Assembly: GCF_900099815.1 (NCBI RefSeq) | Contig: NZ_FNCW01000009.1 | Coordinates: 62,001 to 126,000, forward strand | Length of the DNA: 64,000 nucleotides | Reading direction: 5' to 3' | Source: Psychroflexus sediminis | Lineage (GTDB): Bacteria; Bacteroidota; Bacteroidia; Flavobacteriales; Flavobacteriaceae | Part shown: positions 45,047 to 51,166 of the stretch, piece after piece | Numbering within the stretch: position 1 is the first letter of the stretch | How the letters are laid out: each line of letters opens with the position of its first letter | Notes under the pieces: generated by a model | Databases searched by the model: none | Seen by the model: the letters and a program-made list of their open reading frames with translations, nothing else | Told to the model about the DNA's origin: nothing | Position numbers and translations under genes: made by a program

Positions 45047-46270
45047 ATGAATAAACTAATACTTCTGTTTCTTGTTTTTTTAAGTTCACATTTTAGTTAT
45101 GGACAAACAGAAATCAAAACCATGTTTTACAATGTCTTGAATTTTTCCAGCGCTCCGCCAAGAGAACGTTTAGATATTTTAAATTCCATATTGAATACTT
45201 ATGAACCAGATCTGTTCATGGTAAGCGAAGTCGAATCCGCATCAGACGCTCAAAATATTCTAGACGAGTCATTTCGCTATACTACTGCAAATATAGTACA
45301 AGCTCCTTTCTTACCTAATCCAGGAGCTTATATCAATCAAACGGCTTATTATAATGCCGATAAATTCAAATTGAATTCTACAGCTCAGATAGAAACCAAT
45401 TACAGGAGTATAAACCATTACAGCTTTGAGCTTAAGACAAATTCTAAAATTGCGTTTGAAGTTTTTGTCGCTCATTTTAAGGCTTCAAGCGGTCAATTCA
45501 ATGAAAATGAACGCTTATATGAAGCCCAGCAGTTCATCAAATATATCGAGGGGTTTCCTTCAGGTACAAATATTATGCTTGCCGGTGATTTTAATATGTA
45601 TTCTTCATCGGAGCCAGCTTTTCAGACTTTATTAAACGGGACAAACACTATAAACATGCTGGATCCTATCAATTCTTTAGGAGACTGGCACAACAACTTA
45701 AATTTTACTGGTATTCATACCCAAAGTACTCGCTTAAGCAATGTGGATTTTGCAGATTATGGAGCTGGAGGGGGTTTGGATGATAGATTCGATATGATGT
45801 TGATTTCAGACGCATTAAACTCACCAACAAACAGCATTAGTTTTATTCAGGGTTCTTATAAAGCCTGGGGAAACAACGGCAATTGCTTTAATGATAACAT
45901 CAATAGTATAGATTGTGCTGGAACATTTGATCAGGAATTAAGAGGATGGCTTTATATGATGAGTGATCACCTGCCGGTAGTGATGAGTTTGAATGTAAAA
46001 GAAGAATTATTATCCACAAATGAATTTGTTGCGGAAAGCCCGGTAAAACTGACTAATGGAAACCTTGTTTCAGATCGCTTAGCCTTAAAATTTTCTCCGA
46101 ATCTTCTTTCCGAAAAGGTCATCATTTACAATACCCTGGGACAAGAAATTTACTCTTTTAAGGTTTCAAGCTTAGAATTTGCAGTTGATGTTTCTACTTT
46201 ATCCAGTGGATTGTATTTCTTAAAAGTAAATCAAACCCCTATTACTCAAAAATTTTACATAAACCATTGA
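45047..46270 (+). CDS. Secreted endonuclease/exonuclease/phosphatase-family protein with type IX sorting domain
   Basis: A 407-residue secreted protein with a signal peptide (about 1-19). The EEP domain (about 22-315) is recognisable by TMFYNVLNFS, SEVESA, MLAGDFNMYSSSE, and MSDHLPVVMSL, which holds the catalytic histidine. The last 70 residues resemble a T9SS type A sorting domain (KVIIYNTLGQEIYSFKVS, LSSGLYFLKVN). It probably hydrolyses extracellular nucleic acid or phosphoesters. The next gene starts inside its stop codon. Confidence 0.85.
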   Translation: MNKLILLFLVFLSSHFSYGQTEIKTMFYNVLNFSSAPPRERLDILNSILNTYEPDLFMVSEVESASDAQNILDESFRYTTANIVQAPFLPNPGAYINQTAYYNADKFKLNSTAQIETNYRSINHYSFELKTNSKIAFEVFVAHFKASSGQFNENERLYEAQQFIKYIEGFPSGTNIMLAGDFNMYSSSEPAFQTLLNGTNTINMLDPINSLGDWHNNLNFTGIHTQSTRLSNVDFADYGAGGGLDDRFDMMLISDALNSPTNSISFIQGSYKAWGNNGNCFNDNINSIDCAGTFDQELRGWLYMMSDHLPVVMSLNVKEELLSTNEFVAESPVKLTNGNLVSDRLALKFSPNLLSEKVIIYNTLGQEIYSFKVSSLEFAVDVSTLSSGLYFLKVNQTPITQKFYINH

Positions 46271-49074
46271 ATCAAAAATATTTTTACTTCAGCTTTTTTT
46301 TAATTTCTTTTTTGAGTTTTTCTCAAAACAGGATAACAGCTGATATTCTGACTTCAGATGATTTAAAAACGCTAAGCATCACCCAAACCATCCGTTTTAA
46401 AAACACAAGTGATCAGGCTTTGGAGTCGATATATTTATACAATTGGTTAAACGCCTTTTCCGATAAAGAGAGTCCTCTGGCAAAACGCTATGCGGAAGAA
46501 TACGTACGCAGATTTCACTTCGCATCAGATTATGAAAGAGGTGGAACAACTATACATTCTTTATCTACAGAATTTACTGATTCCAATTGGAATCTCGTCC
46601 AGGGACATCCCGATTTAATTCAAGTTAAACTTGATAAAGCTTTACCCCAAGGTCAAAGCCTTGATATACATCTGAATTATACACTTGTTGTTCCTGATCA
46701 GAAATTTACCGGGTTTGGCTGGAATAACCGTGAGCTGAACTTGAAGCAATGGCTTATTTCTCCTGCTGTTTACAATGAAGGCTGGATTTTGTATAGCCAT
46801 AAAGATCTCAACGATTATCCTTTACAGAGAATGGATTACGACCTATTTCTCGAATTTCCAAATACTTATATCATAAAATCAAGTTTTGAGCAATCAAATT
46901 CAGAAAGCCATCTGACGACTTATAGGAAAGTAGAGCTTAGAGGTGAGAATTTGGCAGGGACTACATTATACGTTAAGCAGGTAAATGATTTTGAATCTGT
47001 ACAGACAGATCATGTTACTTTAATTACCAATCTAAAGGATAGTGAATTAAGACCTGAGATTGAAGCGCTTATTTTGGACAGAATTGTCTATTTTTTGGAA
47101 GGTCGTTTTGGTGATTTTGAATTCAAATCCATGGTAATTACTGAAGAAGATTACAACACCTCTCCAGTATACGGACTCAATCAATTACCTAGTTTTATAA
47201 GACCTTTTCCTGATGGATTTCAATATGACATAAAAGTTCTTAAAACCATTACAGACCAGTACTTAAGACGCTCTCTGCTTACAGATACAAGAGAAAACCA
47301 ATGGTTTCTCGATGCCATACTGGTGAAAGTTATGATGGATTATGTTGAAACTTATTACCCTGATGTCAACTTACTTGGCTCGTTTTCAAATTTTATTGGA
47401 GTGCGGTGGTTTCATGCCGCAGATTTAAAGTTTAATGATAGGTATAACTTTATTCACCAAACGACAATCCGACAGAATTTAGGACAGCCCGTTGATTTTC
47501 CTCAAGATAGTCTCCTCAAGTTTAATCAAAAGCTCTCCAATCCCTATAAAGGGGGGTTGGGATTCAAATATTTAGAAGATTATTTAGGAAAAGACATCAT
47601 TAATCAGAGCTTAAAAATTTACTTTAATAAACATAGGTCAAAACGCTCAAAACCAGATGATTATTTCAAAATACTAGCTTCATTAACAGATAAAGATATC
47701 TCCTGGTTTTACACAAATTATTTAGGAAGTTCAAAAGATATTGATTTTAAAATTAAGAAGGTAAAAAAAATATCAGACTCTCTGGAAATCAAAATTATCA
47801 ATAAAACCAGGAATGCAATGCCGATTGCTGTTTACCAGTTAAAAGAGGATAACATACTTTCGAAGCAATGGGTGAATGCTTTTAAAAGGGATACCACAGT
47901 TTACCTTAAGGACCTAGGAAGTGATCAAATTGCAGTGAATTACGAGCAAGTAATTCCTGAGATAAATCCTAGAAACAACTACAAAAGCAGGGGTAAAATT
48001 CTAAATAAACCCTTTCAATTCAGACTTCTTGAAGATATAGAAGACCCCAAGTATAATCAGTTATTTATTACTCCTGAGTTTACTTACAACCTTTATGATG
48101 GACTAGCCTTAGGTCCAAAATTATATAACACCTCCCTTCTCCCGAAACAACTAAGTTTTAAAATCAATCCGAAGTATGGCCTTACAAGTAACGCCTTGGT
48201 TGGTGGAGCTTCTATAGATTATACTCATTTTTTGAAAGAAGAAGATCTGTTTCAAGTGCGATATGGATTGACAGGCTCCAGGTTTTCATATAATGTAGAT
48301 TTGTTTTATAGGCGTTATTCCGGTTATATAGGGATGACCTATAGGCCTCAGGATTTACGAGATAATGCCAGACACAACCTCTTTGTGAGGACAGTCAATG
48401 TCGATCAAGATATAAATGAATTTGTAGAAACAGAAGAGCCCAATTATAATATTTTCAACATACGGTATAATTTTTCAAATAAAAATCTGGATCGATTTTT
48501 TACGACGTCAATTGATTATCAAATTTCACAAAAATTCTCTAAGGTTTCTTCTACCTTTAGTTTTAGAAAACTTTTCAATAATAACCGGCAAATAAATGCA
48601 AGGTTTTATGGTGGTTTGTTTTTATATAATGACGCCAAAGATTCAGATTTCTTCAGCTTTGCTCTGGATAGACCTACCGATTATTTATTTGATTACAATT
48701 ACTATGGGAGAAGTGAAGAAAGCGGCTTATTTAGTCAGCAGTTTATTATGGCAGAAGGCGGTTTCAAGTCTCAATTTGATCAAAGATTTGCAGACAGTTG
48801 GATAGCTTCTACCAATGTAAGCACAACCATATGGAACTGGATTTTTGCTTATGGAGATGCAGGTTTTTTTAAAAATAGTGGCGCAAATCCACAGTTCGTT
48901 TACGACTCTGGAATAAGACTAAGTTTCGTCGAGGATTATTTTGAGCTTTATCTACCAGTTTATTCAAGTAAAGGCTGGGAAATAGGTCAAGATAACTATG
49001 ACCAGCGCGTAAGATTTATAGTTTCCCTGGATTTATCAACTATTTTCAAGTTATTTACGAGAAAATGGTATTAA
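46267..49074 (+). CDS. M1-peptidase-like envelope protein without the HExxH zinc site
   Basis: A 935-residue protein with a signal peptide (about 1-20). The first 500 residues follow the M1 aminopeptidase plan, but the region where HExxH-x18-E should lie (about 326-360) reads TDQYLRRSLLTDTRENQWFLDA, so no zinc ligands remain. The rest (about 560-935) is rich in alternating beta strands with aromatic ends (YSGYIGMTYRPQD, FSFRKLFNN) and looks like an outer-membrane beta-barrel. It starts at TTG 46267, overlapping the previous stop (TTGA). The function is unknown. Confidence 0.7.
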   Translation: MNQKYFYFSFFLISFLSFSQNRITADILTSDDLKTLSITQTIRFKNTSDQALESIYLYNWLNAFSDKESPLAKRYAEEYVRRFHFASDYERGGTTIHSLSTEFTDSNWNLVQGHPDLIQVKLDKALPQGQSLDIHLNYTLVVPDQKFTGFGWNNRELNLKQWLISPAVYNEGWILYSHKDLNDYPLQRMDYDLFLEFPNTYIIKSSFEQSNSESHLTTYRKVELRGENLAGTTLYVKQVNDFESVQTDHVTLITNLKDSELRPEIEALILDRIVYFLEGRFGDFEFKSMVITEEDYNTSPVYGLNQLPSFIRPFPDGFQYDIKVLKTITDQYLRRSLLTDTRENQWFLDAILVKVMMDYVETYYPDVNLLGSFSNFIGVRWFHAADLKFNDRYNFIHQTTIRQNLGQPVDFPQDSLLKFNQKLSNPYKGGLGFKYLEDYLGKDIINQSLKIYFNKHRSKRSKPDDYFKILASLTDKDISWFYTNYLGSSKDIDFKIKKVKKISDSLEIKIINKTRNAMPIAVYQLKEDNILSKQWVNAFKRDTTVYLKDLGSDQIAVNYEQVIPEINPRNNYKSRGKILNKPFQFRLLEDIEDPKYNQLFITPEFTYNLYDGLALGPKLYNTSLLPKQLSFKINPKYGLTSNALVGGASIDYTHFLKEEDLFQVRYGLTGSRFSYNVDLFYRRYSGYIGMTYRPQDLRDNARHNLFVRTVNVDQDINEFVETEEPNYNIFNIRYNFSNKNLDRFFTTSIDYQISQKFSKVSSTFSFRKLFNNNRQINARFYGGLFLYNDAKDSDFFSFALDRPTDYLFDYNYYGRSEESGLFSQQFIMAEGGFKSQFDQRFADSWIASTNVSTTIWNWIFAYGDAGFFKNSGANPQFVYDSGIRLSFVEDYFELYLPVYSSKGWEIGQDNYDQRVRFIVSLDLSTIFKLFTRKWY

Positions 49075-49308
49075 TGCCAAATAACCATTTAATGACGTAT
49101 TTAATTAGTTCATTTGCCGCTCTATGTCGTCCTAATTAATTCTATACCAAATCTTTGGCTTGGTAATCCTTGGCTTAGTCTGAACTCTTAGTTTTAAGAG
49201 TTGGATTCAAGTTTGAAAAGATGAGAAATAAATTTAATGGTTTATGGTCGTTATTCGATCCTTATATTGTTTCCCTGTTTTCATCTTATATGTATAAAAA
49301 GATAAAAA
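49075..49308. other. Intergenic gap downstream of the M1-like gene
   Basis: I see no gene. An 8-base inverted repeat (AACTCTTA at 49183-49190, TAAGAGTT at 49195-49202) is present but is not followed by a T-run, so it is not clearly a terminator. Confidence 0.5.
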
Positions 49309-49328
49309 GGTTAAATTTTAATTTAACC
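49297..49328 (-). terminator. Terminator downstream of the cysteine-rich lipoprotein locus
   Basis: A perfect 9-pair inverted repeat (49309-49317 and 49320-49328) with a 2-base centre is followed on the minus strand by TTTTTATC and more T-rich sequence. It is placed to end the minus-strand transcript that includes the 49359 reading frame. Confidence 0.7.
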
Positions 49329-49358
49329 CCATTTCTGAAATTTTCATTTCGAGACTTT

Positions 49359-49529
49359 TTACCATCTCATAGTACATGATGTACAATCACCAGCAACACA
49401 AGAATAGCCAACTGTTATTAAATTTCTTTTAATTTTCTTGAGAGAACATCCTGAAGATCCACTACTACAACTACATGAAATATCATCACCTTCCTCTAAA
49501 ACTTCAGTTGATTTTTTTATAATTTTCAA
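49359..49529 (-). CDS. Cysteine-rich frame, alternative 3' extension of the lipoprotein
   Basis: A 56-codon frame starting at TTG 49529 and ending at TAA 49359-49361, in a different frame from the gene at 49504-50232 but overlapping its end. It has seven cysteines (SCSCSSGSSGCS, YSCVAGDCTSCT), echoing the cysteine cluster of that lipoprotein. The overlap contains an A7 run on the coding strand (49512-49518); loss of one A, or slippage, joins the two frames into one 290-residue protein. It may be a separate small gene, an extension made by slippage, or evidence of a true frameshift. Confidence 0.45.
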   Translation of the reverse strand: MKIIKKSTEVLEEGDDISCSCSSGSSGCSLKKIKRNLITVGYSCVAGDCTSCTMRW

Positions 49530-50232
49530 GTGGAATTAAAAGAGATATTGTTTGTCCATAAAAATCAACTAAAACTGCTTTTGAATTTTTATTGTTAGGG
49601 GAATTTCCATCCCATAATTTATCGTAAAACCTTTTAAATTCAGATTCAAATTTTGGGAGTTTCATTAAAACATCAAAGCTGGGAACATTTTTATTTGAAT
49701 TTTCCCTTTTTGAAGAATCTGTCATAAAATTAATGCCACTTTCAAGATTAATTAAACCTCCTCTTTGCCCATCTCCAATTTGATGAGTAAAAGAAGACTT
49801 GTTCTCTTCGATTGTTTCTTTTCCTCTGGAACCGGTACAAGATTCTGTACTACCTTCAGGACAGGCAGAACAACCAACAACTTTTCCTAATTTTACAACA
49901 TCACAACCACCACTACAAGTGCTTTCGCATGTGTAACTACCACGATTTGCTATAAATGCTTTCCCATTAGCATCTGTTGCAATATAAATATAATTTTCAG
50001 GTAACTTAAAATCTAATCTCGAGCCATTATCACTAATTCGAGATTTTGTTCCTCTTGGTAAAACAATAGAACCAAATTTAATTCCTCCCATATCATAAGG
50101 TATCTTGGTAGATTCTAATAATTCATTTTGATTATCACCATTATTTAAATTATTTTCATCATTCGTACAAGCAACAAATGAAAAACTAAAAAACAAAATA
50201 ATTAGCGCGAATAAAAGCTTAAATTTTTTCAT
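49504..50232 (-). CDS. Cysteine-rich lipoprotein of unknown function
   Basis: A 242-residue lipoprotein (lipobox ending at Cys22 in FSFVACTNDENN). The acidic residues after the cysteine resemble export signals of Bacteroidota surface lipoproteins (inference). Residues 100-135 contain a cysteine cluster (Cys102, 106, 110, 121, 124 and 132 in YTCESTCSGGCD and VGCSACPEGSTESC). No family with known function is recognised. Its stop comes just after an A7 run, and a reading frame with a similar cysteine cluster continues in another frame; see the next frame downstream. Neighbouring genes do not suggest a role. Confidence 0.75.
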   Translation of the reverse strand: MKKFKLLFALIILFFSFSFVACTNDENNLNNGDNQNELLESTKIPYDMGGIKFGSIVLPRGTKSRISDNGSRLDFKLPENYIYIATDANGKAFIANRGSYTCESTCSGGCDVVKLGKVVGCSACPEGSTESCTGSRGKETIEENKSSFTHQIGDGQRGGLINLESGINFMTDSSKRENSNKNVPSFDVLMKLPKFESEFKRFYDKLWDGNSPNNKNSKAVLVDFYGQTISLLIPLENYKKIN

Positions 50233-50529
50233 AACAAATATTTTATAAATTAATGTATGTAAATTAATTAATATTTAATTATACTTAAGGTTTTACTTTT
50301 ATTTTATATTCTTTTTAAGAAATAAATTGTGAATTTCTCAAGGATTGCTCAATTAATTTATGATCCTAGGATGAGGCTTACTTTTGTTGAAGAATTTTTG
50401 AACTCTACCAGCCCGTATATTTTAGTAATGGCTGAGAAATTGGCGAAGAAAATTATGATAAACGCATTCGCTTCATTGTTTTACTGGATCTATCTATACT
50501 CTTTAAGTTATTCACTATAAAATGGTATT
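50233..50529. other. Intergenic gap upstream of the cysteine-rich lipoprotein
   Basis: An AT-rich region. A 63-codon frame at 50329-50520 (GTG start, plus strand) is open but shows no recognisable domain and has no clear ribosome binding or promoter element, so I do not call it a gene. Confidence 0.45.
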
Positions 50530-50563
50530 AAAAAAGCATATCCTATTTTGAATATGCTTTTTT
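50530..50563. terminator. Bidirectional terminator downstream of folE
   Basis: A perfect 12-base inverted repeat: AAAAAAGCATAT at 50530-50541 and ATATGCTTTTTT at 50552-50563. It can end transcription from either side; on the minus strand it follows folE by 19 bases. Confidence 0.9.
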
Positions 50564-50581: not shown

Positions 50582-51166
50582 TTAACTTATCAGCTTAAGA
50601 AATTCATTTCGGGTTTCCTGATTTCTAAAAGCACCTCTAAATCCTGAAGTCGTGGTGGCAGAATTTTGCTTCTGCACACCTCTCATCATCATACACATAT
50701 GCTGAGCTTCAATAACTATCGCCACTCCTTTAGGTTGTAAGGTGTTGTTAATACATTCCAGAATATCACGGGTCAATCGCTCCTGAACCTGCAGACGTCT
50801 AGCGAAAACATCTACCACTCTAGGAATTTTACTGAGACCAACAATTTTGCCATTTGGAATGTATGCAATATGGACTTTACCAAAAAAAGGAAGCATATGG
50901 TGTTCACAAAGGGAATACAGTTCAATATCTTTTATCAAGACCATATCATCATAATCTTCTTCAAACATAGCTCCCAGCAAAATTTTCTGAGGATCCATCT
51001 CATAACCTTGAGTCAAAAACTGCATGGCTTTCGCAGCCCGTTCCGGTGTTTTTAAAATACCGCTTCTTGAAGGATCTTCTCCAATATTTTCTAAAATCGA
51101 TAAATAATTTGATTTTATTTCCCCAACAAAAGGTTGGGTATATTCTTCGTAAGTTTTGTAAGACAT
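50582..51166 (-). CDS. folE: GTP cyclohydrolase I
   Basis: Makes dihydroneopterin triphosphate from GTP, the first step of tetrahydrofolate and pterin synthesis. The 194-residue protein has the zinc-binding Cys and His residues in [18 protein letters not shown] and the second cysteine in [14 protein letters not shown]. Other conserved parts are [15 protein letters not shown] and RGAFR. It follows msrA with a 3-base gap. Confidence 0.98.

Follow-up and report, generated by a model that had tools for sequence, protein, structure and literature searches.

Frameshift pseudogenes and singletons at poly-A/T sites of prokaryotes are treated in a survey of frame transitions in 1106 genomes (PMC3711429); its accessible part names conservation of the frameshift site as one feature of programmed frameshift clusters. 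A broken gene can also be rescued: in Citrobacter rodentium, transcriptional slippage at an A11 run restores the frame of tssM1 at about 20–25% (PMC4256274, in the available excerpt). According to the accessible part of PMC5574713, transcriptional slippage at A/T runs rises exponentially with run length, and in Buchnera 151 of 157 insertions lay in runs compared with 16 of 57 deletions.

The locus that we report here resembles the first two of these systems. As in frameshift pseudogenes and singletons, a gene is split by one base at a poly-A run, and the site is unconserved in the homologues found; the differences, as far as the accessible part of PMC3711429 goes, are that no Pfam/NCBIfam model was found for the family and that the downstream frame is undecayed. 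As in tssM1, a stop lies close behind the poly-A run and the lost domain lies downstream in another frame. However, the tssM1 run is A11 and the rescue inserts A's (PMC4256274, same excerpt), whereas the run here is A7, the change needed is a net −1 or +2, and the case is known from sequence alone.

Two frames at an A7 run

The locus lies in the window, that is, the whole 64,000-nucleotide stretch of Psychroflexus sediminis DNA that was analysed. Its features are given below; profile A5 was made from seven of the nine unbroken, distant homologues described in the next section.

49504..50232, minus strand: lipoprotein frame 1, 242 amino acids (ORF list; profile A5, E 1.5e-28, model positions 2–237)
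49837..49929, minus strand: module 1, with Cys102, 106, 110, 121, 124 and 132 (sequence, module profiles)
49512..49518, minus strand: A7 run, the meeting point of both frames (sequence)
49359..49511, minus strand: frame 2, 50 more codons and a stop, with a second six-cysteine module (profile A5, E 7.1e-10, model positions 226–291)
49374..49475, minus strand: module 2, six cysteines, in frame 2 (sequence, module profiles)
49307..49330, minus strand: AT-rich hairpin followed by a U-rich stretch, a possible terminator (shuffle test, z −2.17)

The first-pass annotation of this DNA had described a 242-residue ORF ending just past an A7 run, and both were found at these positions. Frame 1 consists of a putative signal peptide with a lipobox cysteine (FVAC22; both read by eye), module 1 and a middle region, and its TGA is the third codon past the two lysines of the A7 run. 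The two frames differ by +1, and frame 2 is entered when one base fewer or two more are read. Skipping one A, as the annotation had proposed, does give an open overlapping frame down to 49359, with a joined product of 290 residues (240 through the shared lysines and 50 from frame 2). The extension holds six cysteines, one fewer than had been counted. In the third frame, the sequence after the A7 run reads NQLKF and then stops.

A TTG at 49529 opens a 56-residue ORF in frame 2, and the extension could be read as a separate small gene that starts there, an option that the annotation had left standing. However, its product (MKIIKKSTEV...) would have no signal peptide, whereas an export signal was seen by eye in eight of nine relatives, and in all nine unbroken relatives the homologous stretch forms the C-terminal end of a single, longer protein. 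We give this option practically no credence.

A terminator had also been claimed beyond the extended frame. A 10-pair hairpin with a U-rich stretch does lie past the longer frame, and 4 of 200 shuffles were equally stable, but a consensus terminator scanner listed only one site, on the plus strand, and not this hairpin. Since both stops come before the hairpin, its position hardly helps to tell which of them is used.

Relatives that carry both modules in one frame

Direct searches with the 242-residue frame gave weak, N-terminal matches and one real relative, itself a weak match (G056, E 0.0026; 60 relatives), and the 53-residue extension query alone found a relative in G045 (E 3.2e-5; 196 genomes of the order). 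The G045 and G056 loci encode unbroken proteins of 283 and 338 residues with both cysteine clusters, and G184 encodes an unbroken family protein of 306 residues. With a three-sequence profile, a member came up in G315 (order, 395 genomes), and further members in G584, in G768 and, as two copies, in G460 (class, 395 genomes); a search of 395 genomes of the phylum with the seven-sequence profile A5 then yielded G878 and G1066. The sets of genomes drawn for these searches overlap, and the profiles were made from two-module proteins, by which members lacking module 2 could be missed. In total, the family comprises 11 loci in 10 genomes: nine are unbroken (eight genomes), and one uninterrupted reading frame is absent only from the window locus and G768.

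Profile A5 aligned colinearly with the window: its model positions 2 to 237 matched frame 1, and positions 226 to 291 matched frame 2. Profile comparison thus shows both halves of the locus to be homologous to, and colinear with, unbroken single-frame proteins. The extension is almost certainly an authentic part of the twin-module family; against a module-2 profile from which it had been left out, it scored 39.1 bits, compared with 20.6 bits for the best of 5000 shuffles. The annotation had suggested comparing relatives for the joined or split form and for retention of the stop, and all nine unbroken relatives read on in one frame through the second six-cysteine module. Since they do so, the extension is best regarded as coding, and the split as the result of a frameshift. 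A frame spotted by eye in raw sequence thus corresponds to a real conserved domain.

The nine unbroken members, which have not been named, share with the window protein a putative lipobox signal peptide (eight of nine, by eye), module 1, a middle region and a module 2 close to the C-terminus, but they are read in one frame. Each carries two modules of six cysteines, with a seventh grouped to module 1 in G1066. The usual module pattern is CxC, a third C 4 to 7 residues further on, another C, and finally CxxC, and in eight of the nine module 1 begins with CxC. A variant module 1 is common to the window and the second G460 copy: CxxxCxxxC, ten residues, CxxC, six or seven residues, and C. Counted from the last cysteine of module 1 to the first of module 2, the modules are separated by about 120 residues in the window and by some 110 to 160 in the relatives. 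The profiles of modules 1 and 2 aligned with each other (probability 93.8, E 1.7e-7), which indicates a true internal repeat, and the echo between the two cysteine clusters that the annotation had remarked on therefore holds at the level of the family.

As called, protein P0009 has no lipobox signal, and P0013 and P0014 as listed begin upstream of the signal, at TTG. The G584 member (L025:1438-2274, minus strand) as called lacks a signal peptide at its beginning, perhaps through a misplaced start or a loss of export. G460 carries two unbroken members (L024:1456-2376 and L028:1438-2280, plus strand) that differ in module 1 spacing.

No Pfam/NCBIfam match above the curated cut-off was obtained for either frame of the window, for seven unbroken relatives or for frame 2 of G768, with P0011, P0013 and P0014 left out of these scans; the best sub-threshold match was DUF4969 (E 0.0013, residues 1–35 of the window protein). 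The family profile matched no solved structure at E 1. The AlphaFold model of the G056 protein was of low confidence (mean pLDDT 58.2), and for this reason we make no claim about the fold. The intact protein would probably be exported and lipid-anchored, with its modules as small disulfide-stapled domains for binding or display at the envelope; the stapling idea follows from the even cysteine numbers of the exported modules.

The distribution of the family is patchy. Profile A5 matched none of the other 26 searched genomes of the window's genus (some incomplete), so that the gene occurs in 1 of 27, and it occurs in 1 of 38 genomes of the family to which G768 belongs. A module-only profile over 80 relatives gave no placeable new protein, and viral contigs scanned with one relative as query gave nothing. 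Of two contig scans, the first returned none and the second two records, both with members already found, namely proteins identical to those of G184 and G045. Two candidate rows were dropped on reading their ORFs: the one in G455 encodes a 161-residue protein unlike the family, presumably DUF1573-like, and the one in G240 a 384-residue protein that we take to be serine-hydrolase-like. What emerges is a small, patchy family with duplicated six-cysteine modules and no Pfam/NCBIfam model in the members scanned.

Origin of the frame break

We consider it probable that a recent homopolymer indel truncates an inserted twin-module lipoprotein gene, which lies beside a decayed duplicate of the 3′ end of its neighbour. 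The locus would be one gene for a secreted, lipid-anchored protein with its two six-cysteine modules about 120 residues apart, and a one-base change in the length of the A run would have split it into two overlapping frames. In the genome, this change would be a recent indel caused by replication slippage. What is mainly made would then be a truncated lipoprotein with module 1, ending just after the A run, and module 2 would be translated rarely or not at all.

The frameshift is probably an ordinary one rather than a deliberate switch of reading frame. None of the nine unbroken members has an A run of at least 7 (two of the nine have T7), and within the family such A runs are confined to the two split members. 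In the window, by comparison, 57 A/T runs of at least 7 lie inside 55 conserved genes.

The same runs bear on whether the split exists in the cell at all. The gene could be intact, with the break arising from an error of sequencing or assembly in the homopolymer. An intact, family-like extension is what such an error would predict, and according to the accessible part of PMC3711429 most singletons confirmed by homology should be sequencing errors and not genuine indels. However, the 57 equal or longer runs show no frame break against one congener, and the assembly, in 36 contigs, has a listed completeness of 99.95%. The comparison was between the window and 100 kb of congener G013, using ORF matches at at least 60% identity. 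None of the 72 congener ORFs matched the window in two frames, nor in reverse did any of the 68 window ORFs (E 1e-10), in a test that kept shadow ORFs and could miss short second pieces. A second test takes care of such pieces: in 54 of 55 orthologue pairs the alignment reaches both C-termini to within 20 residues, the lone exception being cut by the window end. Together, the missing two-frame matches and the C-terminal alignments indicate that frame errors at such runs are not noticeably frequent here. We therefore regard an error at this one run as unlikely, while still leaving it some weight.

The annotation had also offered productive slippage: some full-length protein would be made beside the short form when the polymerase or the ribosome slips at the A run. 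Frame 2 is intact, the tssM1 case shows that a run can rescue a broken gene, transcriptional deletions in runs of Buchnera also rise with run length (PMC5574713, accessible part), and the split in G768 has a frame relation that fits a single-A insertion. The direction at the window locus is wrong for the commonest kind of slippage, however. The frames are +1 apart, and the RNA must lose one A or gain two, whereas what is inserted at A/T runs is mostly a single base, and few deletions are associated with runs (PMC5574713, accessible part). An inserted A, or a −1 ribosomal slip, would lead into the third frame and its early stop. The run is also short of nine, at which length a large share of genomes show selection against such runs (PMC1088944, in the available excerpt), and A7 is unconserved in homologues while equally long runs are common in intact genes nearby. 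Programmed slippage at the A7 run is thus unlikely, and for slippage that yields useful full-length protein in any form we see very little room.

The other split member offers a comparison. In G768 (L026:1028-1830, minus strand), the gene is split into two overlapping frames at an A8 run directly behind module 1, and the other frame holds module 2 intact. This break lies far from the window's position and has the opposite frame relation (starts 299 versus 703 bases apart; 2 versus 1 modulo 3).

Two of the 11 family loci are thus split at their own longest A run, which could hint at tolerated or reversible switching. One form of this would be phase variation, with A-run length changing between generations and module 2 turned on or off. 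An envelope-type lipoprotein would suit it, as would the position of the two splits at longest runs. However, the two splits affect different parts of the protein, A runs of at least 7 are absent from the unbroken members, and an A7 run is short for a contingency locus; phase variation strikes us as improbable. In a broader form, A runs would act as switches of the family at places that differ among genomes, and a change in run length or slippage would set whether one or two envelope modules are made. The window's A7 and the A8 of G768 would then both have been caught in the one-module state with the second module intact. We hold this to be doubtful, with a small chance of being right; further members split at A runs with intact second halves would make the idea testable.

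Setting and age of the proposed insertion

The recent-indel reading also draws on the surroundings of the gene, for which two further features are needed.

48939..49074, plus strand: 3′ end of the intact neighbour gene (46267–49074), the reference copy of a direct repeat (repeat comparison)
50396..50531, plus strand: decayed duplicate of the neighbour's 3′ end, between the lipoprotein gene and the gene at 50582–51166 (repeat and protein match)

The lipoprotein gene sits between the neighbour gene and the gene at 50582–51166, which we take to be folE, and between the two repeat copies. The remnant matches the neighbour's 3′ end with 56% identity over 68 residues, and as a direct repeat at 73% over 136 nucleotides; read by eye, it contains a one-base gap and a TGA replacing TGG. 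Among 15 congener loci with the gene at 50582–51166, seven have the neighbour gene within about 100 bases and no lipoprotein gene between, and the other eight are uninformative, the neighbour gene not being found in the available flank. Judged by eye, the spacer that follows the remnant is similar to the native one in L034 and L035, which suggests that the remnant sits at the native position. We infer that an insertion took place here and duplicated the 3′ end of the neighbour.

In a tree of the 204-nucleotide ends, the remnant had a branch of 0.45 substitutions per site, a length resting on about 204 columns, and did not group with the live copy. Neutral decay simulations left both frames open in 0 of 2000 runs at 0.45 and in 0.1% of 2000 at 0.2; over a distance as short as 0.05, however, neutral sequence would often remain open, the extension being open with six cysteines in 34%. 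Because the frames are open against this simulated decay, selection probably acted on the gene until recently and the indel is probably young, a dating that assumes that gene and duplication arrived together. The annotation had listed an old frameshift as one option: the unbroken relatives support the frameshift, but its great age is doubtful, as the six module cysteines are kept and no stop has appeared.

Just past the stop of the gene at 50582–51166, at 50531–50562, lies a hairpin-like inverted sequence (AAAAAGCATAT...ATATGCTTTTT; by eye) that may be the terminator of that gene.
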